From Aristolochia californica (Eukaryota > Streptophyta > Magnoliopsida > Piperales > Aristolochiaceae), in NCBI GenBank assembly GCA_029961685.1, contig JARWKL010000012.1:4317807-4381806 (forward strand): a stretch of DNA of 64,000 nt, in the 5' to 3' direction. Positions within the stretch are counted from its first letter, which is position 1, and every line of letters starts with the position of its first letter. The notes beneath the pieces were generated by a model, which did not search any database, was not told the DNA's origin, and saw nothing but the letters and a program-made list of their open reading frames with translations. The position numbers and the translations under genes are program-made. Shown piece after piece: positions 1 through 47,489 of the stretch.

Positions 1-705
1 ATGTAATACACCACCCCCATCTGTGCTTCAACCCCAGCAATTGTGCTTTGTTGGTCTGGGGCATTGTTGTATATTTTTAAAGCCGTTTCAAGCAACTTGA
101 GTGCCTGTTCAGGCTCATTCATAGACTCATAGATGGCAGAAACATTAGTTAGAAAACTTCCAATCTCCTCACTAGGGATCCCAGGGGTAGGCTTACTGTA
201 AATGCAGAGAGCATTCTCACAGTAAGATTTTGACTCTCTTATTTGACCAGTCATGTTATATAAATCTGCTAAACGAACAAAGATTGAAGCCTCAGTCGGA
301 TGGTTGCCTCCTTTGGTGGACTTGAAAGTAGTAAGGGCTTTCTGATAGGCAAACTCAGCCTCATTGTATCGAGCCAAAGCTAGATAGGTATCTCCAAGGC
401 TACAGTCCACTGAAGCCACCCTTGGATCCTTTTCTCCCAATACTTGGTTATGGATTTCCAGGCCCATCTTGTAACACTATATGGAATTTTCAAGTTGGCC
501 GACCATTGCATGATTAGCACCCCATTGCATATGGCCAGTAAATTTGGCAAGAGCATGCTCCTGACTTCATATAAGTTGGGAATTTCAATTGAGTGCTCAA
601 GATAGGGGATAACCTGACTGTACTGTCCCAAGCTGCAGTATATTGCTGCTACCACATGCAAACACAACACCAGCTCGAAGCTTGGGTTCCCATCAATAGA
701 AAAAC
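1..705 (-). pseudogene. Kinesin-light-chain-related TPR protein fragment, captured cargo of element A
   Basis: The minus strand encodes tetratricopeptide repeats typical of plant kinesin-light-chain-related proteins. Readable blocks in order are PSFELVLCLHV (near 690), QEHALAKFTGHMQWGA (near 540), CYKMGLEIHNQVLGEKDPR (near 450), VASVDCSLGDTYLALARY (near 400), then FAYQKALTTFKSTKG and repeats out to position 1. It is broken three ways: a frameshift near 570, an in-frame TAG near 480, and a direct join of DPRV to ASVD near 420. Intact relatives, as I recall them, have about 70 more residues at that join. No intron interrupts it. The intact protein is a TPR scaffold thought to link microtubules with cell-wall synthesis machinery. 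Its position downstream of an LTR, primer site and leader marks it as transduced rather than resident. Confidence 0.75.
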
Positions 706-715
706 AATTCATCCA

Positions 716-1140
716 CTGAATTATCTGAACCCTACTCTGAATACCCAATAAAATTTTATCACGAACAGTCACCCCTGGTTGAAGAAATTTGACAAACAGT
801 GGACGAACAACATACCAAACATCCAAAAGATTAAACACGAGGTTGTCAATTGGATAATGAATATTCACACTGCTGTTGTTCTCGTCGATAGGAAAATAAA
901 GCAGCAACCAAAAATATTTTTTGATCATGCCCGGCACCCCCTGAAAAATTCCTTCTCAGAATACATACACACAAACCCTAATTCCATTAATTGAGCACTG
1001 TTGCTCTGCTACACAGGACAGAGAACCTTTGTCCACAATTTTTGAGCAGCGTTCTTGCTGCTTATCCTCTTGGAGGCCCTTCAACCGCATGGAACCACCG
1101 CTTTGACCTAAAAATAGATGACGTTTCATAAGCTTACCCC
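716..1140 (-). repeat. Leader segment shared by elements A, B and I
   Basis: On the minus strand this segment contains a phrase equivalent to a run of CAGCAAGAACGCTGCTC followed by GGTTCTCTGTCC, then a stretch beginning GAGAACAACA. Recognisable relatives lie at about 13945-14450 on plus in element B and about 60955-61440 on plus in element I. The order of blocks is the same in all three. Conceptual translations share a pattern like MYxARxLFxxFL, reminiscent of the start of a pentatricopeptide motif, so the segment may come from the 5' part of a host PPR transcript; that identity is inference. Confidence 0.6.
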
Positions 1141-1950
1141 CAATTTTGTTGGAGATGGTTCCCCAGTGGGCTTCTGAGGGCGAGGTTGAGGCTGAGAATG
1201 AGAATCTGGAAGCTAGAGCCCACCAGACTTGTTTCCGACGACACTTCCTCTTTTTCTGGTGGACTCTTATTTCTTCCGGTGCTTGTAGATTTTCGGAGAC
1301 AGAGGAGGGATGGCCTAACTAATTCGTCGTGACCGAGTTAGATTGGAATGCTTCCGTCTACTGTGCAGGAAAATTTTCTGCTGGCCGTGAGAATGGATTT
1401 TGGGAGGTCTAACCCAAATCAGCCTTGACTGACGAGATTGTGGCCGCATACCCCTCTGATTTCGGATTTCCAGGGTCCTTCTTGGAGATTTTTGAGGCCC
1501 ATGTAGTCGGATTTGGGGTCGTACCAGTATCGTCCACTACTGACGACGTTTTGGTAGAAAACCCTGTCGAATGCCCCAAATCTTGGTCCCTGCTGTCTGG
1601 CTTTGGATCTCCCTGCGGGGAAATTTTGAAAGTTTTTGAGGCATGGCCTTTCTACTCGTCTAAAACAGCATCTGCCTCTTCTGCAGGGACTTTGTCTGGT
1701 AAACAGGATGAAATGGTTAATTTGTCTTGCTGGTGACCTGTTTTCACGTCCAAGAAAGCTTCTCGATCGACTGCCTTAGTGTGTATTTTGTGCTCGGGGG
1801 TTTGAGGTCGTATGACCTTTTCTGCGAAAGCTAGTAGCTTCCTTGCAAGAAAAATTTTCACGCATTTCTCTTCAATGCCAATCCACCGCATTTCTCTGAT
1901 TTCTTTGTGCATCGCCATCCATTCTTCTGGGGATATAGAATGGCTTATTG
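1141..1950 (-). pseudogene. gag-like leader of element A
   Basis: Immediately inside the primer site the minus strand reads a peptide beginning S-H-S-I-S-P-E-E-W-M-A-M, matching the starts in element B (MSDSPSQEKWIAM) and element C (MSQDEWMAM). The start codon is lost here: the ATG of B and C is ATA. An open stretch continues to about 1652, with a charged block (FLARKLLAFAEKVIRPQ) that has a counterpart in C (LARKQLASVEKVTRPEI). Further down the match to B and C continues at DNA level, including a phrase around CACCAGACTTGTTTCCGACG, but stops interrupt the frame. There is no zinc knuckle or recognisable capsid domain, so gag is only an assignment by position. Confidence 0.5.
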
Positions 1951-1957
1951 TAGTCCC

Positions 1958-1969
1958 GCTCTGATACCA
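1958..1969 (-). promoter_or_regulatory. tRNA-iMet primer-binding site of element A
   Basis: The plus strand reads GCTCTGATACCA, the exact complement of TGGTATCAGAGC, two bases inside the LTR boundary. This is the minus-strand priming site for reverse transcription from initiator methionine tRNA. It fixes the element's orientation and the inner LTR edge. Confidence 0.85.
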
Positions 1970-1971
1970 GT

Positions 1972-2375
1972 TGTTATGGTCCCAGATCTGACACATGGTT
2001 TCGTTGTGAAGGTTCCGGTTCGGCCTTGGAGAATTGTAGAACAACATGGTGGAATTGTAGGGAGACATCGAGAGGAAGATGAAAATCAAGCGAAGTTTGA
2101 AAACCCTAGAGCTCGTTGTGGAGAACTCTAAGCTTGTTTAGCCTAAAAATAACCTAAAATCAATGCTTGTTTTTCTCATTACTTTTACCCCTTAAATAGG
2201 GTTCACCTTGTTAGGTTTTAAGATAAAATATTACAAAAATACCTTGTGAATAAAATATTCCAAAAATACCCTTATAAATAAAATATTCCAATAAATACCC
2301 CGTGGCCTAAAACTGAAATAAATAAAGTAAATTAAATAAAAATAATAAAATAATAATGTTATTGTGTTCATGACA
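1972..2375 (-). repeat. 5' LTR of element A
   Basis: About 404 bp. In element orientation it begins near TGTCATGAACACAATAAC and ends ACCATAACA next to the primer site. It contains repeated GGTATTTTTGGAATATTTTAT-like units and ACCCTATTTAAGGGGTAA, a likely TATA region. The same blocks occur in the solo LTR at 5521-5948 and in the element B LTR, so the three belong to one family. Confidence 0.75.
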
Positions 2376-3797
2376 GACCAACGCATCTCCACACCACCAC
2401 AACAACACTGGATAAGCAAGATCATGGGATTCAATTTTACCGTCAAACACAAACCTGGTCCCTTGAACTAAGCCACTGATGCTCTCCCGTCGCTCAGACG
2501 AAGCCTTGCAACTTGCAGCCATCAGCCAGCCCACGCCTCTGCTGTTAGAGTCCATCTGCAAGGAGCACCAGACCACACCAGAATTACAACAGCTGTCTCA
2601 GAGAATTACAGCAGGCCAGATGGCGTCTAACAGGTCCCTCCATGAGCATCTCATCCTTTACAAATGGCGCATCTACCTAGTGCATTCTTCTCCCTTGGTG
2701 CTGAGTATCTTATCAGCTTATCATGACAACACGCATGAGGGACTCCACAAAACTTTATAGAGGATACACGGAGATTTTTATTGGGCTGGATTGAAATCTC
2801 ACGTAGTAGAATATGTTGCTGCGTGCCTGGTGTGCCAGCGCAACAAGGCTCACCATTTATCTTCGGCTGGGGTGCTCCAGCCCCTCGACCTTCCCACTCA
2901 GGTATGGTCCGACCTCTCTATTGATTTTATTGAAGGCCTTCCGAGAGCAGCGGGGAAATCCATACTTTTTGTCATGGTTGACCGCCTTTCCAAGTATGCC
3001 CACTTCATTCCCATGGCCCATCCATATACAACAGCCACTGTCGCCCAAGTTTTTTTTGACAATATTGTGCATCTCCATGGCATTACCGAGTCCATCGTCA
3101 GTGATCGTCGGGGCCTTGTGGGGGACAGCCCCAAGAAATGGGTTCAATGCATTAGCTGGGCCGAGTATTGCTACAACACCTCATTTCATACAACCTGACA
3201 AGAAACACCTTTCAAAATTCTCTATGGCAGGGACCCACCCTGTTTGCTCTCATATACCAAAGGATCTACCCGAGTGGAAGCAGTTGTTCATGCCCTGCAG
3301 AGTAGAGACCAACTGTTAGCAAATGCACTCGAATGCCTTCGGAAAGCTCAGGCCTGCATGAAGCTCCAGTATGACCAACACCACCGAGATTTGCAATACC
3401 TTCCTGATGACTTTGTCTGGCTTCCTCTCCAGCCATACCGCCAACACTCCATTGCCGGTACTCGCCACAAGCTTTCACCCAAGTGGGACATGTTGCCTAT
3501 CAGCTCCAACTGCCACCAGAGTCCCAACTCCATGATATTTTCCATGTTTCCCTGCTCAAGCCTCTCAGGGGACCAACACCTCAGTCCATCCCTGATCTGC
3601 CGCCGATAGAGGACGGTAAGGTCTCTCTCACTCCGCTCAAAATTCTGAAGACTCGACAACTTGCGGACATCACCCAGATTTTGGTTCAGTGGTCACATAC
3701 TTATCCTATTGACACTAGTTGGGAAGAACTACAGGTGTTCCAGCACGTCTATCCTTCCTTCGAGCTTGGGGACAAGCTCTTTGCCCAAGGGGGGAGT
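2376..3797 (+). pseudogene. pol: Ty3/gypsy pol fragment (RNase H end, integrase, chromodomain-like tail), element O
   Basis: The reading starts inside RNase H (PPQQHWISKIMGFNF), exactly at the right edge of element A. It continues through the integrase zinc-binding region (HDNTHEGLH ... CLVCQRNKAHHL), the first catalytic Asp (DLSIDFIEGLP), and FVMVDRLSKYAHFIPMAHPY. The second catalytic block is cut short after SIVSD and jumps to GDSPKKWVQ, so the segment carrying the catalytic Glu is missing. Frame changes follow near 3200 and 3480; the last frame gives [12 protein letters not shown] and ends ELGDKLFAQGG before the polypurine tract at about 3787-3799. It cannot encode an active integrase. Confidence 0.85.
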
Positions 3798-3799
3798 GA

Positions 3800-5948: not shown

Positions 5949-5953
5949 CATAC

Positions 5954-12918: not shown

Positions 12919-13252
12919 TTTTTATCACGCAATAACATTATTAAAAGTGTAATTAATTATTTTTTTAATTTACTTTATTTTATTTCAGTTAAAGAATTAA
13001 TAGGCCACATGGGTATTTTTGTAATATTTTATCTATAGGGGTATTTTTGTAATATTTTATCTGGAACCTTGTAAGGGTGAACCCTATTTAAGGGGTAAGA
13101 GTAATAAGAAAATAGAAACATTGAATTAGAGTAAACAAGGGTTTTGAGTTCTCCTCAAAGAACCTAGGGTTTTCAAGCTTTTCTTTGACTTGATTTTAGT
13201 CTTTCTCTTCTTCCTCCCTACGAGTCCATGTGTTAGATCCAGGACCATAACA
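12919..13252 (+). repeat. 5' LTR of element B
   Basis: About 334 bp. The start is worn (TTTTATCACGCAATAACATT compared with TGTTATGCACGCAATAACAT in the solo LTR); the end is GGACCATAACA, two bases before the primer site. It contains two GGGTATTTTTGTAATATTTT units and ACCCTATTTAAGGGGTAAGA, as in the solo LTR and element A. Confidence 0.75.
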
Positions 13253-13254
13253 AT

Positions 13255-13266
13255 TAGTATCAGAGC
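13255..13266 (+). promoter_or_regulatory. Primer-binding site of element B
   Basis: TAGTATCAGAGC, one mismatch from the initiator-tRNA complement TGGTATCAGAGC, two bases after the LTR end. Confidence 0.75.
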
Positions 13267-13275
13267 GGGAATACA

Positions 13276-13940
13276 ATGAGCGATTCGCCATCCCAAGAAA
13301 AATGGATTGCCATGCACGATCAATTGGAAGAAATACGCGCATGGTGTTTTCCATTAAAATTTTTGCAAGGGAGAAACTCGCTGCTGCAGAAAAGGTCATA
13401 CGACCTAAACTCGCTTGAGATGCTGTCTCGGACAGGCAGAAAGGCCAAGGGCCAGAAAATTACACCATCTCTGAGCACTAAATATGCACTGAATAAAAGT
13501 CATCAAACGCTGTCTCAGGCTGGAAGCAAGGGCCAAAAAAATTCAAAGTCTTTCCAGTGGCGGGTACATCCGAAATTGGGGACACAAATCTGAAATCGGA
13601 CTTAGAACTTCCGAAATTAGACGGCGAGGACCCCGATTTTTGGAAATCAGATGGGTATTCCACAACCCCTTCTCACGAGAAGCCATAAGTCTTCCACAGG
13701 TGACACAAACAAATTCGAGACACCTCCGTCTCGAAAAATCGCCAAGCGGAGAAGCCCCTAAAGGGTGTTGTTTGCCGTCGAAAAAAGCTCAACTGGCAAC
13801 CAACCGCAATGTATTTTCGCCAGGGTCCGTCATTCCAACAGCCGGCAAGGCGAGGAGAAAATGGGAGATAGGGCGATGAGAGCAAGGGGCACCACAGTGG
13901 AAGACGAATTTTGGGGGTAACCTTCTGAAACACCATCAAT
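13276..13940 (+). pseudogene. gag-like leader of element B
   Basis: An ATG ten bases after the primer site opens a 105-residue frame (MSDSPSQEKWIAMHDQLEE) ending at 13593, rich in Lys, Ser and Gln. Beyond it the frame is broken, but DNA similarity to the leaders of A and C continues to about 13940. The opening motif, position after the primer site and basic composition are shared with C. No zinc finger or capsid signature is visible; it might supply only packaging signals. Confidence 0.5.
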
Positions 13941-13944
13941 TTTT

Positions 13945-14450
13945 AGGTCAAAACGATTTTTCCATGGGGTTGATGGGGCTCCAAGGGACTGAGCAGAAGC
14001 AACGCTGCTCAAAATTTGGAGACGGAGGTTCTCTGTTCCGTGAATCAGAGAAATAAAGCACTTTTTCTAAAATTTTGGCTTGTGTATCTGAATTACGAGT
14101 TGGAAATTTTTTAGGGATTCTAGGGGTGATAGAATTTTTTTTTATGGGTGTTGTTTTATTGTTCTACTATTGAGAACAACATCAATGAGCCTGCTCTTGG
14201 TCAAATTGACAATGGTGAGCTGCAATTTTTGGGCCCCATGTATGATGCTCGGGCCCTGTTAGAAGAAATTTTTCTGTTCGGTGGGAGTTCTGAATACGAG
14301 ATTGAAGTGTTTAATTTTTTGGATGTTTTGTATGATGCTCAAGCCCTGTTCATAGAAATTTGTTTATTCAATGGGAGTTCTGAATATGAGAAGGGAGCCA
14401 ACGTGGAAAAAAATGGAGAAAATTTTTTTTGGGTGTGCTGGGAATGGTTT
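13945..14450 (+). repeat. Leader segment shared with elements A and I, element B copy
   Basis: Starts near GGGGTTGATGGGGCTCC, passes CAGAAGCAACGCTGCTC and GAGAACAACATCAATGAG, and includes two partly repeated blocks (ARALLEEIFLFGGSSEYE and AQALFIEICLFNGSSEYE), pointing to a local duplication of about 110 bases. The element I copy at about 60955-61440 has one such block. Confidence 0.6.
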
Positions 14451-14499
14451 TGTGAATGAATGATTTTTTTGTGGCTGGGTTGTACAGTCTAACTCAATT

Positions 14500-15050
14500 T
14501 CCAATTTCTGCTGCTGTTGCATTCTTGGGTTGGACAGGAGAGCCAATTTCTATTTTTAAATTTGCTGCTACTGTGGCAATCCAGAAATGGACTCAACTGA
14601 AAAAAAATATAACCGGTTAGAAGTGATGAAGATGAGCAACACCTAGAATATGTAGAAAATGAAAATGAATCACAAGGTACATCTATAGCTCATGAGAATT
14701 AGGGACATGTTGCAGTGATTACGACTGTTCAGATCTGTGAACACAAGTTGGCAAACAGAAAACTGATAAGTCCATCTTTAGGCCAGCAGCATAGCAGTGT
14801 TTATTGGAAGAATGAAAGTTCCACCCTCAATCCAATGCATTGCTGGATTGTACGACAATGTTTTGACACTGCAAAACACAGTGCTGCCAACAGTGCAACT
14901 GCTGAACACAATGCTGATAATTCTGCGAGTAGTAGCAGCAGTGACTTATGGTGCACAATTATCTATTGTTTTGGGCACAATAGATACTCCTCTGCAGGAT
15001 GTAGCTAATTTTGGCCAGACAAGGACAACAACAAAATAATTTTTGTTCTT
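14500..15050 (+). pseudogene. Anonymous cargo block of element B, also present in element D
   Basis: Shares with D (minus, about 45100-45570) a VAFLGW phrase, QICxxKLANR, PSLGxQHSSVYWKN and xxCIAGLYD, followed by the motif GAACACAGTGCTGCCAACAG. Neither copy is in one frame, and I do not recognise the source protein. Since B and D have different LTRs yet share this cargo, it was either passed between elements or captured twice from the same transcript. Confidence 0.5.
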
Positions 15051-15610
15051 ACTGCATGTACCAATAGTGGAGCTCTTGAGCCCAAGATGATGCTGATATT
15101 TAATATTGTTGCTGCTATTGCAGTGAAGATAAGGGCACCCTAGCAGAAACTACAAACTGAAAAATATAATGCAGTTGAGCACCACTTGGAAAATTTTGAC
15201 TTTGACCAAATGAGACAAGACTTGAATGTGCATGTGCATGGGGGGAACATTGATGCTGCTCGTGGTGTATTTAATGAATTACCAGCCATTGATCTTATCT
15301 CAATTGAAATCATATGTGGCAGAGGGGTTGTCTTTGGTAAAGATTGTCTTAATACCATTGATTTTGAGAAGTTGTTGGCAGATAGGGAGACTCTCAATGA
15401 TGAAGGTTCTCTTGGCCATATTTTGAATGTTATGCTATAGGGGATGATTTTTATGGCTGTTGACGGGAAAAATATTAAATTCTGGACGGCGTCTGAACAG
15501 AGTATCAGTGTTGCTGCTGTTTTGACACTGTAGAACACAGTGCTGCCAATAGTGCCACTGCTGAAAACAATGCTGATAGTCCTGAGAGTAGAATCAGTAG
15601 TGCCTTATGA
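14868..15610 (+). repeat. Direct repeat of an 80-bp cargo motif inside element B
   Basis: A segment beginning CACTGCAAAACACAGTGC at about 14868-14949 recurs at about 15523-15608 with the same order of bases and a few substitutions. A single related copy lies in element D around 45140-45200 (minus). The unit encodes nothing recognisable; it may mark sites where cargo was joined by template switching. Confidence 0.6.
15186..15440 (+). pseudogene. PPR-like cargo fragment in element B
   Basis: An 84-residue open frame containing HGGNIDAARGVFNELPAID, which resembles the start of a pentatricopeptide repeat; the remainder is not recognisable. PPR proteins bind organellar RNA. One partial motif is weak support, but another PPR fragment is captured by element D and a PPR-like phrase ends the cargo of element I. 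Confidence 0.35.
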
Positions 15611-16059
15611 AGTCCATGATGTTTTCTATTTGGGAGAGGCTCATGAGTTCTTCCACCAAAAATAGTGTTGTTGTGCCAAGGACACCATGCTTCCAGAGAG
15701 CCAAGGACACAGTGCAGCTATGGCGGTGCAAAACACAATGCAGCCCAACAGCCACGCAAACAGTGATGCAGTGGCAGTGCTGAATGAAATAGGTGATGTT
15801 CATTCTGAAAATCTAAATAACTCTTTGGCTGTAATTGCACAGATGCTCCAGAAATTTTTTTATGTCTTTGATAGCCTTAGTGTTGGGGTTGGATCGTCCT
15901 GCATCCTTAGAGACCGCTGATGGTTTTCCAGCCCATGTTAGCATGCGGGTTTGAAAGATGCAAGTATGCTCTTCTAGGTTTCCAGAAATTGTGCCAATCA
16001 GAACTATGAAACAACAAGGTTCTTCTAGCCCTCAAGCTGTTACCGCTGTTGCTGCCACT

Positions 16060-16233
16060 ATACAAATAGGTGATGGTGTTGGTGAAATCCTCTTTATGAG
16101 AAGTTCAGTTGTAGAGCAGAAGGCATTACCATTTCTGGGTGTATTCATCAATTTTACTGCTGTTGGTGTGGACCCTTCTATAATGGGCATAGATAAACTT
16201 GTTGCAATTTCTGCTGCAATGAAGGCACTGTCT
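16060..16233 (+). pseudogene. 3-ketoacyl-CoA thiolase fragment, captured cargo of element B
   Basis: About 58 residues match the central to C-terminal part of plant peroxisomal 3-ketoacyl-CoA thiolase: IGDGVGEILFMRSSVVEQKA, then LGVFINFTAVGVDPSIMGI and VAISAAMKAL. The enzyme performs the last, CoA-dependent cleavage step of fatty-acid beta-oxidation. The fragment lacks the active-site Cys, His and C-terminal Cys regions, so it is non-functional. No intron interrupts it, as expected for cDNA. It sits in a 110-residue frame (15958-16290) whose ends are not thiolase. The 3' side reaches a run of eight A within 100 bases. Confidence 0.65.
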
Positions 16234-16319
16234 GAGGAAGTAGTTCCTACATTCCATGTCATGGTGCTTTACCGTATTGGGGTGATCTAAAGCAAGTTAT
16301 ACTGGCAGTGTAAATAAAT

Positions 16320-16327
16320 AAAAAAAA
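16320..16327 (+). other. A8 run at the 3' edge of element B cargo
   Basis: Eight A preceded by TGTAAATAAAT and followed by CTCAGGTGGAA, just before the gypsy pol tail. Elements C and D have A8 and A9 runs at the equivalent boundary, and C also has a TCAGGTGGAA phrase nearby. This may be the residue of an mRNA poly(A) tail. Confidence 0.45.
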
Positions 16328-16345
16328 CTCAGGTGGAATCCTCCA

Positions 16346-16407
16346 GTTTTGTCGTCCATAGGGCTGACACAGATACCGTGGATGCTACTTGGGAACAGGT
16401 GGAAACG
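16346..16407 (+). pseudogene. pol: Terminal residue of a gypsy pol
   Basis: Encodes VDATWEQVET, the last conserved phrase of the gypsy pol C-terminus in this window (compare ATWEDVETF in element F), directly before an LTR. Element D keeps the same tail at about 44332-44450 (minus). It is either the 3' end of element B or a remnant of a neighbouring gypsy copy. Confidence 0.6.
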
Positions 16408-17286
16408 TGTTGTGGACTCAATCGCACACCGAGTCACTCAAAGGAGGAGACAATGACTCAACGAGTTCAGCAGTTTTATAATTCATATTTTATATTGCTT
16501 TAAGTATGATTTTTCATTAAGTATGTAAGGATTATGTTCGTAGGGGTAGTATGGGTATTTTTAGCCCTAAAACACTTATGACGTCAAACCCTATTTAAAG
16601 GGAAAGAAAATAGAGAAAAGGCAAGCATTGAAAATTAGGTTAAACAGGCATGGAAGTCACCTTGATGAGTTCAAGGGTTAGAGATCTCCCATGAAGGTAT
16701 CGAGGTATAGATTTTCCTCAAAAATCTGCATATCCTACTATCACTCTTGATCCATTCTCCATTGATTCATATCGAGCAAGGGAGGGAGACTTTCTGTCCC
16801 TTTTTCGAGTTCAAAGAGAGGCTTCAGCCTCCTCTTCATCACGAGCAAGAAGAGAAGGCTTTCATCTCTCTTATTGAGCCAGAATTGAGAGATTTTATTT
16901 CCTACTTAACGAGTAGCATCAGGCAGGTCTCTTTCTAGCATTGAGTCCAACAAGAAGCTAGGAAGGAGCTTCCCAATGTAGGCGAAGGGCTACCCAAGCT
17001 AGGAATACAATCCTAGCACGAGCAGCAGCAAGAAGAGGAGTGAAACCCTCTTGCCGTGGTCAAGAAAAGGTAACCCTTTCCCTCTACCCTTCATGTTCAT
17101 CGTATCTGGGTTCTTGACCTATATCGAGCACCATATTACCTTCATCAAAGAGAGTGTTTACCACTTGATCAAGATCAGTCCAAGAAAGGGTTTTCTCTGA
17201 CCTTATCGAGTTCAGCAACACACTCCTAGTGCTGGAGCCTCAGATCCCATGCTGTGTTACTTGATCCATGACCCGGGACCGTAACA
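16408..17286 (+). repeat. LTR of gypsy K
   Basis: 879 bp from TGTTGTGGACTCAATCGC to GGGACCGTAACA. Its opening (GAGTCACTCAAAGGAGGAGACA) is shared with the J LTRs, so K and J are one family. It has a pol tail on its left and a primer site plus gag on its right, meaning it served as 3' LTR for one copy and 5' LTR for the next, or the left copy has been replaced. Confidence 0.8.
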
Positions 17287-25799: not shown

Positions 25800-25802
25800 A
25801 GT

Positions 25803-26610: not shown

Positions 26611-26619
26611 TCTGGCTCC

Positions 26620-31009: not shown

Positions 31010-31021
31010 ACTCTGATACCA
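31010..31021 (-). promoter_or_regulatory. Primer-binding site of gypsy J
   Basis: Plus strand ACTCTGATACCA, one mismatch from the complement of TGGTATCAGAGC, three bases from the 5' LTR. Confidence 0.8.
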
Positions 31022-31024
31022 AGT

Positions 31025-34084: not shown

Positions 34085-34853
34085 CTCAGTGTTATGGGAT
34101 AGATTATGAGGAGACTTTCTCTCCAGTTGCAAAACTGAACTCGCTACGTATCATCCTCTCTATTGTTGCTAACTCATCTTGGTCAGTATATCAGCTCGAT
34201 GTAAAAAATGCATTTTTAAATGGTGATATAAGCGAAAACATTTATATGGTCCAACTACCAGGATATGTGGTTGAGGGGGATTCCATATGCCGGTTAAAGA
34301 AATATTTATATGGGCTTAAACAGTCCCCTCGGTTGATAAATTCAGTCAAGCGCTTCTATGATTTGGCTTTTATAGGTGCTCCGTTGATCACTTAGTATAT
34401 GTTAAAGATACTATAAAAGGGAAGATATTATTGGTCGTGTATGTTGATGATATTATCTTGACTGGAAATGATGCTCATAGTATACAAGAAGTGAAGAATA
34501 TGATATGTAAAGAGTTCAAGACTAAAGATTTGGGTAAGCTCAAATATTTTCTGGGTATAGAAGTCCTTCAGTTAAATCATGGAATAGTATTGTCTAAAAA
34601 AATACATCTTAGATCTTCTTGAAGAAACAGGAATGAAGGGTAGTAGACCAGTTGATACACCTATGGATGCAAATGAAAAATTGTATGCCACAACTGGAGA
34701 ACATGTAGACACTGGAAAATATCAAAGACTTGTGGGAAAAGTGATATGTCTCACAGTAACCAGGCCAGATATATCATATGTTGTGAGTGTGGTAAGCCAA
34801 TTCATGCACAAACCACAAATTACTCACTGTCAAGCATTGGAGAGAATACTATG
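34085..34853 (+). pseudogene. pol: Copia M reverse transcriptase, interrupted by element C
   Basis: Close relative of Cop1. Starts inside RT at CYGIDYEETFSPVAKLN, then YQLDVKNAFLNGDISENIYM, LYGLKQSPR (deletion and frameshift after this), VVYVDDIILTGNDA, LGIEVLQLNHGI, a frame change, and VDTPMDANEKL ... QITHCQALERIL, where element C is inserted. Upstream pol is missing because gypsy L is inserted there. Confidence 0.9.
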
Positions 34854-35151
34854 TGATATGCCCGGATCTAACACAGGGAGGAAGACGATGAATAGGAAGG
34901 ATCGATGTGAGGTTTTGAGCTTTTGAATGAGCTCCCCCTTAGGTCTTGTGAGAGGGAGAACCTGACCTCGTTTAATCTACTGTTTAATCTACTGAAATTT
35001 ATTTTCCCATTCATTACCTTACGATGCATACAAATAGTTCACGCCAACAAGAGTTTAGGCAAAAATTACAAAAATGCCCCTGAGGTATATTTAAACCCAA
35101 ATAGAATAAAACAGAAAATAAACTAAATGACTACTTAACTGACTCAGTCAG
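34854..35151 (-). repeat. 3' LTR of element C, inner part diverged
   Basis: Matches the right LTR closely from TGATATGCCCGG (plus strand) for about 298 bases to GACTCAGTCAGGGT, then differs (GAGTTCGCTCTGTGAGTCG versus AATTGACTCAGCCATGG). The expected inner end CCATAACA is absent, so this LTR is truncated or rearranged at its 5' end in element direction. Confidence 0.85.
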
Positions 35152-35202
35152 GGTGAGTTCGCTCTGTGAGTCGTAGGTTAGGTTCCACCTGAAAAAAAAC
35201 AA

Positions 35203-35210
35203 TTTTTTTT
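35203..35210 (-). other. A8 run at the 3' edge of element C cargo
   Basis: Eight A in element orientation at the end of the cargo, followed shortly by T8 and TTCAGGTGGAA. Same relative place as the A8 in B and A9 in D. Confidence 0.45.
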
Positions 35211-35215
35211 ACTGG

Positions 35216-35530
35216 TCAAGTATTGGAAAGCGTGTCGACTGTCGCTACATCTCGCCCAACAGCAACGCTGCCCTCCCTCAGTCCTAGACTTAGTATTCCA
35301 ATACCACAACCAACCTCCAGAACAATTGCATGGCTCATGAGGGAAGAACTGTCAACTGTTGGGGTACATTCATCTCGGTCATTTGCGTCCTCGCCAAAAC
35401 TATGAAAAAATGCATCCTCCGACATGAATGGTTTCAGATCTAATGTCTTCCCTTCAGGGATAGAGGCACCAGCAGTGCCAACAGTGACAATATGGAAGGA
35501 TACTTCTGCTGAATTGCCTCCAAATTCTCC
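35216..35530 (-). pseudogene. Unidentified cargo in element C
   Basis: C-terminal half of a 198-residue open frame. It reads VGTAGASIPEGKTLDLKPFM and IVLEVGCGIGILSLGLREG. The glycine-rich phrase resembles a Rossmann-type methyltransferase motif, but one motif is not enough for a call. It directly continues the HSP90 piece in frame. Confidence 0.35.
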
Positions 35531-35692
35531 AAATTCAAATACTGAGGTTGTGATGAAAATTACCTCATAGTCCTTCTTGGTGAGCCTCGCAAGGACTGGA
35601 GATTTTTCCAACTGTGCCATGCTAGGCCCAGTAATGTAAAAGATGTTCTGCTGCCCTGGTGTCATTCGAGAAATGTACTGATCCAGTGATGC
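35531..35692 (-). pseudogene. HSP90 (endoplasmin-type) fragment in element C
   Basis: About 54 residues: ASLDQYISRMTPGQQNIFY, then QLEKSPVLARLTKKDYEV and IFITTSVFEF. This is the middle-domain region of HSP90s; the wording SLDQYISRM and LEKSP is closest to the ER-resident form (GRP94/endoplasmin) as I recall it. The intact protein is an ATP-dependent chaperone of about 800 residues; ATPase and dimerisation domains are absent here. Flanking residues in the same frame are unrelated. Confidence 0.75.
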
Positions 35693-35937
35693 TATCATGA
35701 AGGCAGCCTTATACCAAACCATCAATCTATTTGTGAAGATCCTTTGAGTACCCTGATTTATCAATGGGAGCAGAGTCGGAGTAGAGCGCCTTGTCTTCAC
35801 CAGCCAGACCAATCTTGTAAGACCATTTTTTTTATGCCAAGTCTATGGTGTTGTTCCCACGGATCAACATAACTGGGCCACCAACAATTCCAGAAACGGC
35901 CTCTGGTTGTCTTTCATCTGCTAATTTACCAAAATTT
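35693..35937 (-). pseudogene. Unidentified cargo between HSP90 and CBS pieces of element C
   Basis: Reads LADERQPEAVSGIVGGPVML, a TAA, then LVKTRRSTPTLLPLINQGTQ and NRLMVWYKAAFMI. Protein-like composition but no family recognised; one stop and one frame change. Confidence 0.35.
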
Positions 35938-36390
35938 GCTTGAGGTAATCATCCAAAGTGACAACTCCAACAACTTCACCATTGCCATCAACCACCATAG
36001 CCATATGTTTTCCAAGGCGGAACTCATTCAGCAGATTCTAGACCGGCATATTGTCCTACACAAAATAATTCCCTTCAAAAACAGGAAATCTGGACCATGG
36101 ATACTTCATTGTCAAGTCATGTAAAACATGTATTGCAGCATTAGCATCAATGGCAATCACATCTCGTAGATGAGTCATGACCTCTCTCACATGTTTTTGT
36201 CACAAACAAGACATATTTTGTATGATATCCTGCCAAAATACTGCTTCTGAACCATGTAATTCAGTTCCACGTCGCAACAGACCTAAGATCTCATCTCGGG
36301 TCACAGTTGGCTCACTGACTACCTCCACACCCATTAATTTCATTATCTCAACTGACAGAAAGTTGAACATCCTAACTGCAACAATCTCCT
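35938..36390 (-). pseudogene. DUF21/CBS-domain protein fragment in element C
   Basis: Minus-strand reading: MFNFLSVEIMKLMGVEVVSE, TVTRDEILGLLRRGTELHG, an in-frame TGA near 36200, HVREVMTHLRDVIAIDANA, SRFPVFEGNYF, two TAG codons, then NLLNEFRLGKHMAMVVDGNG and EVVGVVTLDDYLKQ. The order DUF21 end, EELKLMLRG-like linker, REVMTP-like CBS1, then LLREFR...MAVVLNEYGG..GIVTLEDV-like CBS2 matches chloroplast or membrane CorC/CNNM-like transporters. The linker between the two CBS motifs is shortened. Intact relatives bind adenosyl ligands through CBS pairs and are linked to divalent-cation transport. Confidence 0.65.
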
Positions 36391-36726
36391 GATGATTCAG
36401 CTCAAACCGTCCCTTTAATTTTCGTATCACCGTTGACCTAGCTCCAACAGCTTTAGAAAGAAGTTTGGCATCTCCAGTTCGGTTGGTCAAGCTATCAACA
36501 TTTGCACACACACTGGCAGCAGTACTGTCAGATTCCACCTTCACATCGGCAACAAGTGCAAGAGGCCTATACACACTGCTGTCCACATTGTCTTTTGTAA
36601 ATTTGGCCGCTGAACCAAACCCAGCAGCATCGATAGCACGCCCATCAGTAGTTTCAGCAGTCAACAATTTATATTGTGTTGTTGTCTACCCGGTTTGGTG
36701 CTGGAAGCTTGTCCCCCCATTTCTTT
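36391..36726 (-). pseudogene. Unidentified cargo in element C
   Basis: Open frame with KFTKDNVDSSVYRPLALVAD and RTGDAKLLSKAVGARSTVI. It looks like true coding sequence by composition, but I do not recognise the family; part may belong to the N-terminal side of the DUF21 protein. Confidence 0.35.
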
Positions 36727-36975
36727 ACAATTTCCAAAAGCTTTCGAACATCTTCTAGGAGCGAAGAATCCATTATCATATCCAAGTGCTGCCACAACTC
36801 TTGGTTCATTGAAGGTCATCCCGGTCTTCACTCTGTCACCAAATGTCTTGTAACAAAAATCTTCAAAATCTGCAAAATCTTTTACAACGTTTTGGCTCAA
36901 CAGGCCTTGATATTTCTTCTCCAGGGCATCAGGAAGATCATAGTAATACAAATGTGCATAAGGAGTGATTCCTCT
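36727..36975 (-). pseudogene. GH1 beta-glucosidase fragment in element C
   Basis: About 83 residues in frame with the preceding GH35 piece: GITPYAHLYYYDLPDALEKK, VVKDFADFEDFCYKTFGDRV, then MTFNEPRVVAALGYDNGFFA. The TFNEP motif contains the family-1 acid/base Glu. Intact enzymes are about 500 residues and hydrolyse beta-glucosides; the nucleophile ENG region is absent. Plant GH1 genes have many introns, but none interrupts this stretch, pointing to a spliced-mRNA origin. Confidence 0.85.
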
Positions 36976-37221
36976 AACATCCACAGTAGTTGAAACTTGC
37001 TCAAGGAGTTTAGTTGCAGTAAGATCAACCTTCTTACCAGTGGCCACATCCGTGAACTGTTCAACTTTCCATACCCATTCGGCCTTACTCGATTTCTTCA
37101 CCGTCAGGGATGATGGAGTTGTAATCTTTGCTGTGTTGTGGACTACTTGCTTAGAGGCAGGAAGAACACTAACAGACCAGCCAGGAAGATGATACTCATT
37201 TCCCCACCCAATTTGGAAATT
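36976..37221 (-). pseudogene. GH35 beta-galactosidase fragment in element C
   Basis: About 82 residues: GWGNEYHLPGWSVSVLPASK, VVHNTAKI, KAEWVWKVEQFTDVATGKKV and LTATKLLEQVSTTVDV. This is the segment of plant cell-wall beta-galactosidases after the catalytic barrel (LPPWSISILPDCK-like, then LLEQ..T.D.TDYLWY-like). It is cut exactly before TDYLWY and joined in frame to the GH1 piece, producing a chimeric 206-residue frame (36661-37281). Confidence 0.75.
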
Positions 37222-37239
37222 GGGTTCCCTCTGTTCTGC

Positions 37240-38227
37240 TGAGAGGTGCTTTGCGAGTGGGAGGTGGTGGTCGGGAGTCACATCCCACCGGACTTGTTTC
37301 CGACGGTGCCGACGGAACCTCCTCCATATCCGGTGGTGAAGGGTAGCCCTTTGGGGCTTCGCCGCTGTGGATTTTTCGTGACAGAGGGCTTAGAATACCC
37401 TTCCGATGTCCCCATATCGTCGTCACCGCTATTTAGCTTTGGATATCCTTGCGCGAAAATCTTGAATTTTTCTGAAGCATGGTCCAAATCTCCGTCGCCG
37501 CGGTTCGGCCTTGTATTTCCTTGCAAGGAAATCTTGGATTTTTTGAAGTATGACCTCTCTACCCGTTCAGATATGAGGTTTCCCCCAAATCTTCCGCAGG
37601 GCCTTCGGCTGGCAAATGGGACAAAATTTTGGATTTTTCCGGTCCATGGCCTGTTGCCCTGGCCGAGACAACTTCTGCTACTTTCTTTCACGTACATCCT
37701 GCTCGGAGATTTCAGGTCGTGTGACCTTTTCTACGGAAGCCAATTGCTTCCTTGCAAGCGTCGTCATTTCGGAAGGACGAATAGAAGAAGGGTTGATTGC
37801 GCCCTTCTGTGGTGCGGGAAGAATTTCTGCTGTTCGTGAGAAGGGAATTTGGGAGGTCAAACCCAAATCAGCCAGGATCGACGAAGGTGGTGCTGAATAC
37901 CCTTCCGATTGCGGAATAGCGGAGGCCCCGATGTCGAATGTTGCCACCGCTAGAGAGACAGTGCGATCGCTGAAGTTTTTGACCACCGACATCCATTTGG
38001 GTCTCCTGCCCATCCGAGGTAGAGCCCGAAAAAAGCTGCTGGAGAGACAGAGCCAGTTTCTTTCGTGCAAAAATTTATTTAGTGTAATCTGCTCATCATT
38101 CCCGCATTCTCTCCCCAATCTGGAAGAGAGGTGTCCTCGCCCATGCTCTTTCCATTTCTCTGTCCACCGACCTCCATTCATGGAAGGACAGTTCTCTTTC
38201 CATCGCCATCCATTCGTCTTGGCTCAT
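37240..38227 (-). pseudogene. gag-like leader of element C
   Basis: An ATG ten bases inside the primer site opens MSQDEWMAMERELSFHEW, about 43 codons, ending in two stops. Other frames then carry protein-like text: a 167-residue frame (37678-38181) with ILADLGLTSQIPFSRTAEIL and LARKQLASVEKVTRPEI, and a 139-residue frame (37278-37697) with NPQRRSPKGLPFTTGYGGGS. Counterparts exist in A and B. It is probably one ancestral gag-like protein, now frame-broken. Confidence 0.5.
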
Positions 38228-38236
38228 CGTGTTCCC

Positions 38237-38248
38237 GCTCTGATACCA
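38237..38248 (-). promoter_or_regulatory. Primer-binding site of element C
   Basis: GCTCTGATACCA, perfect initiator-tRNA complement, three bases inside the 5' LTR. Confidence 0.88.
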
Positions 38249-38251
38249 AGG

Positions 38252-38609
38252 TGATATGCCCGGATCTAACACAGGGAGGACTACGATGAATAGGAAGGAT
38301 CGTTGTGAGGTTTTGAGCTTTTGAAGGAGCTCCCCCTTAGGTCTACTAAGAGGGAGAACCTGACCTCGTTTAATCTACTGTTTAACCTACTGAAATTTTC
38401 TTTTCCCATTCATTACCTTACGATGAATACAAATAGTTCACGCCAACAAGAGTTTAGGCAAAATTAAAAAAAATGCCCCTGAGGCATATTTAAACCCAAA
38501 TAGCATAAAATAGAAAATAAACTAAATGACTACTTAATTGACTCAGTCAGGGTAATTGACTCAGCCATGGTGTCTCAGCCTGACTTGGCTCACTATTTGG
38601 TCCATAACA
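38252..38609 (-). repeat. 5' LTR of element C
   Basis: 358 bp. In element direction it begins TGTTATGGACCAAATAGT and ends CCGGGCATATCA. Confidence 0.9.
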
Positions 38610-39155
38610 CTATGATACTTAAAAGGTGCTCCAGAAAGAGGATTGCTATATAAACAACATGGTCACTTCAATATAGTAGGCTTCTCAAATGCAGATTGGG
38701 CTAGATCACCCAATGATAGAAAATCTACGTTTGGGTATTGTACCCTTGTTGGGGGGAACTTGGTCACATGGAAAATCAAAAAGCAAAACGAGGTTTCAAG
38801 ATCTAGTGTTGAAGCAGAATACCGAGCTATGGCCCACACTGTAAGTGAAATTTTATGGATAAAGACTCTTCTTACAAAATTGGGATTTTATAAAGGAGGC
38901 TCTATGGGCCTACATTGTGATAATCAAGCAATTATTCAAATTATATCAAATCCAGTCGTCCATGAAAGAACTAAACATATTGAAGTGGATTATCATTTTA
39001 TACGGGAAAAGGTTCAAGCAGGAATAATTTCTCTTAAGTATGTTTCATCTCAGGAGACATTAGCTGATATCCTCACCAAACCGGTAATATCCAAAATTCT
39101 TTCTTATGTAGGTGGCAAGCTGGGTATTTATGATGTATTTTCTCCTCCAACTTGA
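38610..39155 (+). pseudogene. pol: Copia M RNase H
   Basis: Continues the copia frame after element C: YLKGAPERGLLYKQHGHFN, FSNADWARSPNDRKSTFGYC, SSVEAEYRAMAHTVSEILW, CDNQAIIQIISNPVVHERTK, DILTKPVISK and [10 protein letters not shown]. The 170-residue frame is open to its natural end. The first Asp region reads SNADWA where relatives have SDVDWA. Confidence 0.92.
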
Positions 39156-39162
39156 GGGGGAG

Positions 39163-43943: not shown

Positions 43944-44331
43944 TGGTTAAGGTCCCTCGCCATGGATCGAGTCACTCGGTGATCTCCTCCTGGCTCCAGG
44001 TTTGAATCCGACCATGGAAGATGTTTGGGATTTTTAGAACGCTCTGTGGTTGAGAAGAATCAAGCTTTCGAAAGAAGCTTGCACCTTGGACCTCATTGGG
44101 AGAGAGTATATGATCTCAGACTTTAGACTAATGATCAATGCTTAATTCTATTCAAGCCTTCGTCCCCCTTATAAGAGAGGACTAGGGTTCGAGTACAAAG
44201 CAAAGGCCAATAACAAGGCCCATGAAAAGAAGGAAAATTACATCTAAACCATCAAAGTGCTTAAACCCAAAAATTACATGATTTACCCATGGCGTCTACT
44301 AATCACTCGACCTGCTATAGAGTCCATAAGA
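43944..44331 (-). repeat. 3' LTR of element D
   Basis: About 388 bp, plus-strand TGGTTAAGGTCCCTCGCC to GAGTCCATAAGA; the outer end is mutated (CATAAGA for CATAACA). Confidence 0.85.
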
Positions 44332-44450
44332 TCACCCCATCCTAGAGAAAGAGCTTGTCCTCGAGCTCAAAAGTAGGGTCTGTATGTCGATGTTTCCACC
44401 TGTTCCCAAGTAGCCTCCTCGGTAGCTATGTTCACCGTCTGGACGCCCAA
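44332..44450 (-). pseudogene. pol: Gypsy pol tail retained at the 3' end of element D
   Basis: Minus strand reads IATEEATWEQVETS, then a frame slip and ELEDKLFL-like text, next to the 3' LTR. It matches the pol tail of F, J, K and L. It is the only pol remnant in the element. Confidence 0.75.
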
Positions 44451-44476
44451 AATTGGTGCATTACCCTTAGTAACCA

Positions 44477-44485
44477 TTTTTTTTT
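44477..44485 (-). other. A9 run at the 3' edge of element D cargo
   Basis: Nine A in element orientation, between the last cargo text and the retained pol tail. Compare A8 in B (16320-16327) and C (35203-35210). Confidence 0.45.
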
Positions 44486-45100
44486 CAAATGTAGGGATGT
44501 GTTCCGAACGTCGCTACATGCCCCCAAGCAGCATCTCTACTCTCACTCCATCTTGGACTGGTGTGAACAGCCCCCCATGGCGGCCCCCCATTGGCAAGGT
44601 TGCACTGTCTACACTCTGCCAGCATGGCAGCAACAACATCATGACCAGCCCCCTGCGATTGAGAAGACTCAACAGCACTGACCCCCTCCATTTGCTCCAC
44701 CTTGAAACACTCAGGGCCTGAAACCATCACGAACAACAAGATCAGCATGGTGACGATGTATGGATGGTTGTACCATTTCATAGTGAAGTGCCAAGAGCAA
44801 GATTGCTTCCCTCATAGAACTATCCAGGCCACATGTGTCCGGTAATTCAGATGAGCAATCAGGTAGCGGAACAACACTATGAAGCCCATTGCATGCTTGT
44901 TCCTCATTACCATCATCAGCAGAGAACCCAACTTTCCATGAAATCAACCAGTTGTTCCTTGTCCAAAATCCAGACAGTTCAAGTTGCTGCTCACTGGCAT
45001 GGAGTACAGGAAACACCACTCCATACGTACATTCCATGTTATTGGTGAGCACTACCACTGTTGTTTGAATCCATGTCGGATGAAATTCAAAATGCAGAGA
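44486..45100 (-). pseudogene. Unidentified cargo of element D
   Basis: Overlapping open frames on the minus strand (up to 156 residues, 44711-45181) with hydrophobic stretches (KAVLIVPVAVSIVVSF) and protein-like composition, but no recognised family. It probably contains parts of one or more further transcripts. Confidence 0.35.
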
Positions 45101-45570
45101 GAAGTGATGAAAGGATACCACTATGCTGACTGCAACAGGAACTATGAGCACTGCTTTCAGCAGTGCCACTGTTGGCAGCACTGTTTTCTGCCATGGCGTC
45201 GTACAAACCAGCTATGCATTGGATGGAGCTGGAACAAAAGGTAGAACTTCCATTCTTCCAATAAACGCTGCTATGTTGCTCGCCTAAAGATGGACCTATC
45301 ATCTGTTGGCCAACTTGTTTGCACAGATTTGAATAGCATGTCCTTGATTCGTAGGAGCTATAAATGCAACCTGTGATACATTTTCCTGTCATACATATGC
45401 TAGGTATGGCTCCTCGTCATCACTTCGAACCAGTTTTATTTTGTTCTGTGGAATCCATTGCTGCATTGCCACCACCGTAGAAATTTAAAAAATGGGAAGT
45501 GGCCCACCTACCCACCCCAAGAATGCGACAACAACAGAAATTTGAAAGTGTTGAACCCATTGCTGTATTG
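45100..45570 (-). pseudogene. Anonymous cargo block of element D, shared with element B
   Basis: Contains VVVAFLGWVGGP, NLCKQVGQQMIGPSLGEQHS, SVYWKNGSSTF and SIQCIAGLYD, and the motif GAAAACAGTGCTGCCAACAG, in the same order as in B (14500-14960). Source unknown. Confidence 0.5.
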
Positions 45571-45636
45571 TCACAGCAACAGGAACTAAAATCCTGACTG
45601 ATAAGCCGACAAAGCTATCTACTTGAGCCTCTACTG

Positions 45637-46081
45637 TCTGCCCTTTCTCTCTTAACCTCTGAATGACACATTGAGCATCTTCTGATCTCTTTTCAACCAA
45701 CCCAATAAAAGTAGCAACAATTGGTGAATGCCCAGCCTCCAACATCTCAATGCCAAATCCAATCCCATCTTCTAGCTGCTTCCCTTGACACAATCCATGA
45801 AGAAAAACTATATAGCTGAAAGCATTGGAAGAGATACCAATTGTCTACATTTTCCTGAAAACCCCTTGTCCATCTTCAAACTTTAGTGCCTTGCAGCAGC
45901 CGTCCACCGTAGCCATATAGATTACAATTTCAGGGATTGTACCCTTTTGACGCATGAACCCAAATAGCTTCATAGTGCTTTGAATCAACCCGTCCGTGCA
46001 TAGGCCATCTAGCACTGCAACGGCATTGGGGATGAGCCCCATTGCTTTCATTTTTCTGAAATGCATTTCAGCATCTTGAGG
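45637..46081 (-). pseudogene. Pentatricopeptide-repeat protein fragment in element D
   Basis: About 148 codons in one frame with a single in-frame TAG at 45845-45847. Repeats read DAEMHFRKMKAMGLIPNAV, LDGLCTDGLIQSTMKLFGFM, GTIPEIVIYMATVDGCCKA, GISSNAFSYIVFLHGLCQG and FGIEMLEAGHSPIVATF, at near 35-residue spacing, the signature of P-class PPR proteins. Wording is close to a small Arabidopsis PPR protein I remember as At4g38150-like, but I cannot verify it. PPR proteins bind RNA in mitochondria or chloroplasts. Confidence 0.82.
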
Positions 46082-46924
46082 TGATGGATTCGGTGAAGCA
46101 GCTACCTGTAGTTCAGAGTCTTTGGTGGAATTTGCCTGCATGGAATTTGCTGTTGTCTGGGTACAGTGTTTGTGATGACCAAATTCAAGTAAATTCACCT
46201 CAGAATATATACAAGTAGCATCCATATCATCCAAAAAAATTAAAACAACTTTTTGAAATGGACTGTTACTGTTGGTAAAATGACCCGAAACAGCCACCCT
46301 TTTTCTGTCTTCATGCACCACAATCGAATATGTACCCTGCCCCTATGCAAAAAAATTGTTGACGGGAGATATAACAAAGGCCCTCTGCTGCTTGAATTGT
46401 AAGATGGCCATGATTCTAGAAAGATTAATTAATCGTGTTGGCGTTGCTGACCAGTTAACAACATCACGTTGCGTCTTTAATTCGAACAACTCCCCAACAT
46501 TAGGAGCCCCATTGGAGCATGGAGAAATAGGTTCATAGATAGAGAGGGTTGCACGCTCCACTGTAAGAAAGTGTGGAATGGCAATTGCATACCTGATTTT
46601 GTGCCTAGCAACCATGAATGGAAGTCCGTTTACAATACCACTATCAAGGGCTTCATCTTGTGGAAGCCGTTTCAATTCGAAATCCTCTGGGCGAGACCTC
46701 TCTTCTTTTACTAGGGCCACGATTTCTACTTTGACATCAAAATTTGTGGGTTTTTGTGTTTTTCGGTTAGTATAAGCCATCAATGATGCTTGTCTAGATT
46801 TTTCATGCCCCTTGCCAACTTTGAGCCCGTCGAGCCTGATTTGTTGCCGATGGCGAATAGCATGAAGGAGTGGCCAAAATTTAGAACCTTTCTGCTTAAC
46901 AATGAACATGTGTTTTGGTTCCAC
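46082..46924 (-). pseudogene. Unidentified cargo of element D upstream of the PPR piece
   Basis: A 193-residue open frame (46343-46924) with VNGLPFMVARHKIRYAIAIP and GELFELKTQRDVVNWSAT, then text to the PPR block. It could include host coding sequence or degenerate gag. Not recognised. Confidence 0.35.
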
Positions 46925-47085
46925 TCTCCAAGCAACTCTCCAATTCGAAGATTGAGTTGAAGAATAGTCTCCCGAAGCTCCATAACTTCAGTTTGGATTG
47001 CGGCGGTTTGGGTCTGTCCTTCAATCCGAACTTCCTCCACTAAATTGCACCAATCATTTGGAGAAGAAGAATCGCCGATGGTGGT
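46780..47085 (-). pseudogene. gag: gag-like N-terminus of element D
   Basis: Just inside the primer site: SSPNDWCNLVEEVRIEGQTQ, then IQTEVMELRETILQLNLRIG, a coiled-coil-like stretch similar in style to the start of K and J gag. It continues into basic text without a capsid core. Confidence 0.45.
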
Positions 47086-47102
47086 CCTATCAGATACCAC
47101 GT

Positions 47103-47489
47103 TGTTAAGGTCCCTTACCATGGATCGAGTCACTCGGCAATCTCCTCTTAGCTCCAGGTTTGAATCCGACCTTGGAAAATGTTTGGGATTTTTAGAATGC
47201 CCTATGGTTGAGAAGAATCAAGCTTTCGAAGGAAGCTTGCACCTTGGACCTCGTTGGTAGAGAGTATCCAATCTCAGACTTTAGACTAATGATCAATGCT
47301 TAATTCCATTCAAGCTTTCGTCCCCCTTATAAGAGAGGACTAGGGTTTGAGTACAAAGCAAAGGCCAATAACAAGGTCCATGAAAAGAAGGAAAATTACA
47401 TCTAAACCATCAAAGTGCTTAAACCCAAAAATTACATGATTTACCCACGATGTCTACTAATCACTCGACCTGCTATGGAGTCCATAACA
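47103..47489 (-). repeat. 5' LTR of element D
   Basis: 387 bp, plus-strand TGTTAAGGTCCCTTACC to GAGTCCATAACA. The adjacent primer site (47088-47099) is TATCAGATACCA, three mismatches from the initiator-tRNA complement. Confidence 0.87.

Follow-up and report, generated by a model that had tools for sequence, protein, structure and literature searches.

We analysed a 64,000-nucleotide stretch of the Aristolochia californica genome (GenBank assembly GCA_029961685.1, contig JARWKL010000012.1, positions 4,317,807 to 4,381,806; hereafter the window), in which long terminal repeat (LTR) retrotransposons carry fragments of host genes between their ends. In the assembly that we searched (G000; 659.6 Mb in 521 contigs) the window is C24:4317807-4381806, and self-comparison shows plant-type DNA made up mostly of nested LTR retrotransposons. 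An initial annotation, made from the letters alone, had described four elements, A to D, as a single family that captures and shuffles host transcripts, each with LTRs and an initiator-tRNA primer site, three of them (A, B and C) with a common gag-like leader opening MS...EW.AM, and all four with independently acquired host genes. The interpretation as a lineage that captures and shuffles host transcripts is supported by what follows; several of the particulars changed. The features of the window are collected in Table 1.

Elements A and B form one LTR family. A is nested within a gypsy element, and B is followed, at position 16408, by the 5' LTR of another gypsy element, which has its own primer site at 17290; a 3' LTR of B's own family was not found within the window. 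Using a tRNA-iMet consensus and allowing up to two mismatches, we found 12/12 matches in A and C and an 11/12 match in B, and no primer site in D. The proposed LTRs were confirmed for A (5' LTR), C and D, and the proposed primer sites for A and C. The leader is indeed related in A, B and C, although A reads ATA and not ATG at its start. We rejected its identification as gag, as the leader pieces of A and B had no Pfam match; among predicted proteins, in a set whose plant coverage is uncertain, 91 candidates shared words with the leader and none reached an E value of up to 1. The idea of a single family did not survive either, since A to D represent three or more LTR families: the LTR of C is its own, although its leader is related to that of A and B, and D, which lacks the MS...EW.AM leader, has only cargo and tail in common with the others.

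The host-gene pieces themselves were mostly borne out, namely TPR, thiolase, GH1, CBS, HSP90 and PPR, but the GH35 (GHD) piece of C fell below Pfam's own cut-off and the CNNM/DUF21 part beside its CBS domains was weak (E 0.056). The thiolase of B had no Pfam match and was recognized in the PDB search only. The closest solved structure to the GH1 piece of C was 4re2, a beta-mannosidase/beta-glucosidase (E 1.6e-31). For the TPR cargo of A, presumably kinesin-light-chain-related (the name given in the initial annotation), the likely source judging from sequence identity (88%) is the host gene at G000:C489:36523498. Element C lies in a copia element, the empty site of C being visible in a related copia copy, and C keeps little of the pol tail. 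Element D lies in a gypsy element (LTRs 40520-41442 and 49353-50219), which in turn interrupts a further gypsy element, and no clear target duplication was seen at the ends of D. A fifth, copia-type element, E, contains a segment (S) otherwise present in the gypsy-type elements A and B. Segment S gave 445 first-look candidates in G000, and among the best 40 scored the six best besides itself were 87-91% identical.

Table 1. Elements, LTRs, shared segments and captured fragments in the window (positions in the window; ~, approximate).
Feature	Position	Strand	Evidence or content
Element A, 5' part, continues beyond the window edge	1..2375	-	5' LTR, primer site, leader, segment S, TPR cargo
5' LTR of A, A/B family	~1972-2375	-	83% to solo LTR, 70% to B
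Primer site of A	1958-1969	-	12/12 tRNA-iMet-type, adjoins 5' LTR
Captured TPR fragment in A	3..476	-	TPR_12 9.7e-27 (Pfam)
Segment S in A, common to B and copia-type E	781..1145	-	Sequence comparison
Solo LTR, A/B family	5521-5947	+	Perfect CATAC target duplication; outside the listed elements
Element B	12922..16424	+	5' LTR, primer site, leader, S, T, thiolase, pol tail
5' LTR of B	12922..13251	+	75-82% to LTR regions in 18/20 fetched loci
Primer site and leader of B	13252..13420	+	Genome query
Segment S in B	13818..14250	+	Sequence comparison
Segment T in B, common to D	14495..14923	+	74% over 440 columns
Captured 3-ketoacyl-CoA thiolase fragment in B	15955..16287	+	PDB search 2.4e-20; module at many loci
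Pol tail remnant in B, common to D	16327..16406	+	79% identity
Element C, CTATG duplications at both ends	34849..38614	-	Perfect duplication
5' LTR of C	38252..38609	-	92% to 3' copy, Kimura two-parameter distance (K2P) 0.084
3' LTR of C, one edge degraded	34854..~35190	-	LTR pair comparison
Captured GH35 beta-galactosidase (GHD) fragment in C	37123..37203	-	1.5e-7, below Pfam's own cut-off; genome matches
Captured GH1 beta-glucosidase fragment in C	36754..36987	-	Pfam 7e-19; exon-exon junction without intron
Captured CBS-domain fragments in C	35924..36199	-	Pfam 2e-5, above cut-off
Captured HSP90 fragment in C	35534..35698	-	Pfam 4.9e-15
Element D	43945..47488	-	LTRs ~43945-44329 and ~47105-47488, 93% identical, K2P 0.072
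Captured PPR fragment in D	45848..46342	-	Pfam 1e-7; neighbouring stretches also in L036 and L042 (A/B family)
Segment T in D	45139..45550	-	Common to B
Pol tail remnant of D	44330..44513	-	Sequence comparison
Element E, copia-type, non-autonomous	60576..62219	+	Truncated 5' LTR, copia tail ~61640-61696
Primer site of E	60647	+	1 mismatch
3' LTR of E	from 61697, far end approximate	+	Sequence comparison
Segment S in E	60805-61330	+	Otherwise in gypsy-type A and B

Next, we looked at relatives of B in the rest of the genome. As query we used the first 169 bases 3' of the LTR of B (primer site and leader), which gave 945 first-look candidates in G000; scoring 40 of these returned 42 matching rows at 74-100% identity, B included. 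We then fetched 9.2 kb at each of the 20 best places besides B (loci L031 and onward) and compared these 20 interiors with those of A to D, 24 in all. The 5' LTR of B had no match in two of the loci (L038 and L040). Paired LTRs were present in 12 of the 20 loci, at a K2P of 0.052-0.124 within pairs; the aligned LTRs measured ~320-390 bp and the interiors 1.6-7.5 kb. With the best of several possible ends chosen per locus, the 5-bp target duplication was perfect in seven of the 12 paired loci and had one mismatch in five, including L048 with its non-canonical ends. The interiors were alike at their ends and varied in the middle: the first 250 bp in the 20 loci and B matched 17-21 of the 23 other interiors (A, 12; D, 1; C, 0), the interior ends of the 12 paired loci matched 9-14 others (L048 only 3), and bins lying more than 500 bp in and before the end matched only 0-12 others. 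Cut into 50-bp modules, 22 of the 24 interiors had the same two first modules and 16 the same end module. A stretch of ~1 kb after the leader, the "scaffold", was also common to copies; the part of it in the frame of C matched 129 of the 150 G000 rows listed.

At the 3' end, a pol tail before the polypurine tract was present in all 12 paired loci at the DNA level and in 11 of them in translation, where most read PTFELEDKLFLPGGV or near it, and it is related to the tails of B and D. We assign this remnant to gypsy pol from the same arrangement at ~3770-3830 in a gypsy element of the window; it had no profile match. Apart from this tail, a Pfam scan of 46 of the 187 sense open segments (≥75 aa) of the 20 loci found no gag, protease, reverse transcriptase or integrase domain in the scanned segments of the paired elements; gag and protease did appear at L033 and L046, in unpaired loci and in gypsy elements that we take to be nested there. 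Three loci on one contig (L043, L047 and L049; G000:C221) were near-identical with interiors of ~7 kb (L049 read in part), and L043 and L047 had the same target duplication.

Between these ends lay host-gene cargo. A host domain above Pfam's own cut-off was found in 24 of the 46 scanned segments, at 14 of the 17 loci scanned, and seven loci (L031, L035, L036, L042, L045, L047 and L050) held fragments of at least two unrelated gene families. Twelve families were met in the loci (Cpn60, GH3, RRM, GXGXG of the glutamate-synthase type, PPR, methyltransferase, aspartate/ornithine carbamoyltransferase, metallo-beta-lactamase, GH35, ribophorin II, thioredoxin-like and thiolase), which became 16 with the TPR, GH1, CBS and HSP90 of the window and 17 with the RNA-dependent RNA polymerase (RdRP) of a further locus, L055. 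The host domains were in sense frames of the elements; none of the 20 longest antisense frames of 14 paired interiors had a Pfam match at E 0.01. Long open segments were more numerous on the sense strand (78 versus 60 at ≥100 aa; 37 versus 10 at ≥150 aa). The initial annotation had named in advance the pattern to look for, numerous copies whose cargo varies while the leader stays the same, and this is what the 20 copies read display: the interiors differ from copy to copy and are not one identical sequence, and the host pieces are enclosed by LTR pairs bearing 5-bp target duplications and do not belong to resident genes outside them.

Some loads are themselves abundant, with the thiolase and glutamate-synthase modules each at dozens of places in G000. 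The GXGXG domain occurs in a chimeric module with a second sequence, which gave 102 matches in G000; on C68 and C35, frames of 526 and 535 aa correspond to no more than the last part of this second partner. An attempt to tie cargo matches to leader matches across the genome was rejected. Of 165 cargo rows (TPR, 32 of 77; glutamate synthase, 61 of 102; thiolase, 56 of 150; GH1, 16 of 55; weaker rows dropped), set beside 211 rows of five-prime modules (leader, 42; segment S, 40 of 41; scaffold, 129 of 150 listed), 14 were no more than 6 kb from one of the listed modules, 12 of them downstream on the same strand, one upstream and one on the opposite strand.

To examine the source of the cargo, we searched G000 with the GH1 piece of C in an intron test. 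Residue 35 of the query was crossed without or nearly without a break at six places: the window, C511:10591739, C2:26117110 (L055), C35:13332327-13332622 and C68:12065787 (both frame-changed) and C13:27534985 (of uncertain nature). In the host GH1 gene on C489, by comparison, residues 5-36 lie at 41601042-41601137 (84%) and residues 34-91 at 41601610-41601783 (81%), two exons ~470 bp apart, and a break at or near the same point recurs at C511:34493202/34493759, C489:41595193/41595725 and three places at C111:436. At the junction L057 shows CTGCAG adjoining AAAAGATTTT, and C and L055 read straight through; in the 201 bases obtained from C489, GTCTGCAG adjoins AAAAGATTTTGCAG, where C has GTTGTAAAAGATTTTGCAG. 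The exon DNA is 97% identical to L055 (83/86) and 93% to C (80/86), and L055 has 196 aa of GH1 in one frame (E 7e-51). Since C and L055 join exons that are ~470 bp apart in the host gene, a spliced transcript is the likely source of the GH1 cargo of C. A 75-bp difference between C and the loci L053 and L054 was considered as an intron and rejected, as it is an in-frame piece without GT-AG.

Cargo blocks have also been recombined between copies. L055 and C have in common the scaffold, GH1 (95% over 255 bp) and HSP90 (91% over 164 bp), but L055 has RdRP fragments between GH1 and HSP90 and a longer HSP90, and the GHD and CBS blocks of C had no match within the 3.3 kb read of L055. Together with the GH1 junction, this exchange bears out the capture and shuffling originally proposed. 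L041 and L045 share 740 bp of a carbamoyltransferase load amid differing neighbours, and L031 and L038 share 996 bp of a Cpn60 load. The stretches around the PPR load of D, and the D tail, recur in L036 and L042, although the LTRs of these two loci are of the A/B family and neither contains a D LTR internally. Because B and D share segment T, the four loads of the window are not all independent as had been supposed. L034 was considered as a chimera of A/B and D elements and rejected: it holds a D-type element with both LTRs (oriented positions 2766-6937) nested in an A/B-family element.

We consider it probable that A and B belong, with their many relatives, to a non-autonomous LTR retrotransposon lineage of Ty3/gypsy type that loads host mRNAs by template switching. 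Each copy would retain only what is needed in cis, namely the LTRs, the tRNA-iMet-type primer site, the leader, and the terminal portion of gypsy pol together with the polypurine tract. The conserved leader may act as a packaging signal, and the proteins would be supplied in trans by autonomous gypsy elements. Host mRNAs packaged in the same particle would be joined by template switching during reverse transcription; from the anatomy of the copies, synthesis would start at the primer site, jump to the 3' end, and pass through the pol tail into one or more host mRNAs and then into the element leader. Spliced exons would thereby come to lie in sense orientation, as a new load, between ends that stay the same, and later rounds would amplify, trim and recombine such loads, also across LTR families, as modules of the A/B family are present in C, D and the copia-type E.

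A bolder form of this proposal, to which we give somewhat less than even credence, is that the elements are a dedicated capture cassette, whose leader and pol tail are under selection solely for being packaged and reverse-transcribed in trans and whose interior is free to turn over, repeatedly reading in host mRNAs. Loads might then be exchanged between particles, including those of Ty3/gypsy- and Ty1/copia-type families; this draws on segment S in A, B and E and on the PPR-side and tail modules common to D and A/B-family elements. If true, Pack-MULEs would have an RNA-based counterpart of retroviral style, which in a single genome has given rise to possibly hundreds of multi-gene chimeras.

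Several points weigh against the proposed mRNA-loading lineage. Scoring was confined to the best 40 of the 945 leader candidates, and reading to the top 20 apart from B, which biases the sample toward close relatives of B. The Pfam scan covered 17 of the 20 loci (L037, L044 and L049 fall outside it), with sense segments picked by hand for length and look and antisense ones by length alone, and open segments of at least 75 aa are equally frequent on the two strands (136 sense, 137 antisense). L033 and L046 gave only the gag and protease of nested gypsy elements; L032 had no Pfam match, and its thiolase was recognized only through DNA similarity to B. L043, L047 and L049 are probably segmental duplicates of one insertion on one chromosome. 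The intron test is decisive for GH1 only, and there the host intron was read at its downstream edge, not its upstream edge; it is uninformative for TPR, whose host frames (676 and 721 aa) are uninterrupted, and the glutamate-synthase and thiolase searches gave no clear result. In many copies these two high-copy loads were inherited, not captured. No autonomous gypsy partner was identified, and with LTR pairs diverged by a K2P of 0.05-0.12, activity of the elements today is not implied.

The strongest of the alternatives is that a few ancient multi-gene captures were amplified and then broken by deletion and ectopic recombination, without any specialised capturing lineage. The abundance of the thiolase and glutamate-synthase modules fits this, and for the same reason the number of independent captures is uncertain; B, L032 and L040 are alike over most of the interior, the GHD-GH1 junction of C occurs at three further places, and the internal TPR deletion of A seems to be common to C221:20026379. 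Set against this are the 17 different host families, the stretches without a match in the other 23 interiors, and the difference between L055 and C, which is a replacement of gene blocks and not loss alone, and we regard this alternative as unlikely. That LINE-type processed pseudogenes were inserted into ordinary LTR elements and then carried along is very improbable: intron-free exons are equally their mark, and long A runs are present in L041 (two) and L032 (one), but the strand bias of the host domains speaks against it, as does the lack of any A run of ≥10 in nine of 14 paired interiors. A runs near the 3' end are similarly placed in several elements and can belong to the pol tail, and we rejected them as proof of captured poly(A) tails. 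Gene conversion or transduplication at the DNA level (Pack-MULE or Helitron type), which the mosaic modules common to different LTR families and the copia-type E might suggest, is scarcely credible given the missing host intron in the GH1 load and ends that are LTRs with 5-bp duplications, where no search for DNA-transposon ends within the loads was made.

Elsewhere in the window, the stretches 24657-26611 and 29889-31809 are same-direction copies (89%) of a gypsy gag-LTR stretch, an arrangement that suggests a tandem of LTR-interior-LTR-interior from unequal recombination. Positions 4900-5400 are rich in repeated GATCGATCAAT-like words, and long poly-G runs lie at ~51190-51225 and ~61565-61590.

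Capture of transcripts by plant LTR elements is already known, and a multi-copy lineage with often several genes per copy is a new variant; we recognized no description of such a multi-load lineage in the open-licence literature. LTR size is among the criteria for terminal-repeat retrotransposons in miniature (TRIMs). Among 30 TRIM elements of seven subfamilies (GmaRetroS15 of soybean and others), intron-free exon fragments are flanked by 5-bp duplications, two elements hold exons of more than two genes (up to three), and the gene-fragment TRIMs measure 1,172-1,449 bp and belong to 7 of 289 subfamilies (PMC4717578). In the copies read here, by contrast, cargo is common, and interiors of 1.6-7.5 kb with LTRs of ~320-390 bp exceed the 1.2-1.4 kb of those TRIMs. 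Bs1 of maize is an LTR element with exon-only fragments of three host genes (PMC13317346; PMC4717578), and the intron-free GH1 fragment inside the LTR pair of C resembles it; Bs1 is described as one low-copy element with one load (PMC2774510), whereas here a multi-copy lineage has many loads. In the retroduplication of pepper NLR genes, spliced transcripts lie inside mostly non-autonomous LTR elements with machinery in trans, and genes inside LTR elements number from 1,398 (rice) to 3,898 (potato) (PMC5664825); one gene family was followed there.

Surveys have counted host fragments in LTR elements for 672 genes in rice, 1,343 genes in sorghum and 425 elements in maize (PMC3726574; PMC2774510). 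The maize elements were spread over 81 families, and according to that survey none of them combined pieces from two or more standard nuclear genes (PMC2774510), unlike the copies read here, in which several genes per copy are common. Transduced extra frames have been described as present in one or few copies and usually in the sense of gag and pol (PMC7264820), and the host domains here are likewise in the element sense. Pack-MULEs and Helitrons repeatedly acquire and fuse pieces of several genes (PMC4717578; PMC13317346), but they are DNA elements, and Pack-MULEs keep introns, whereas the copies described here have LTR ends and are intron-free at the junction tested.

With many junctions in one lineage, template switching, microhomology and the choice of mRNAs can be read directly. 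The lineage also offers a setting in which to study exon shuffling, small RNAs directed against donor genes, and erroneous gene models in plant genome annotation.

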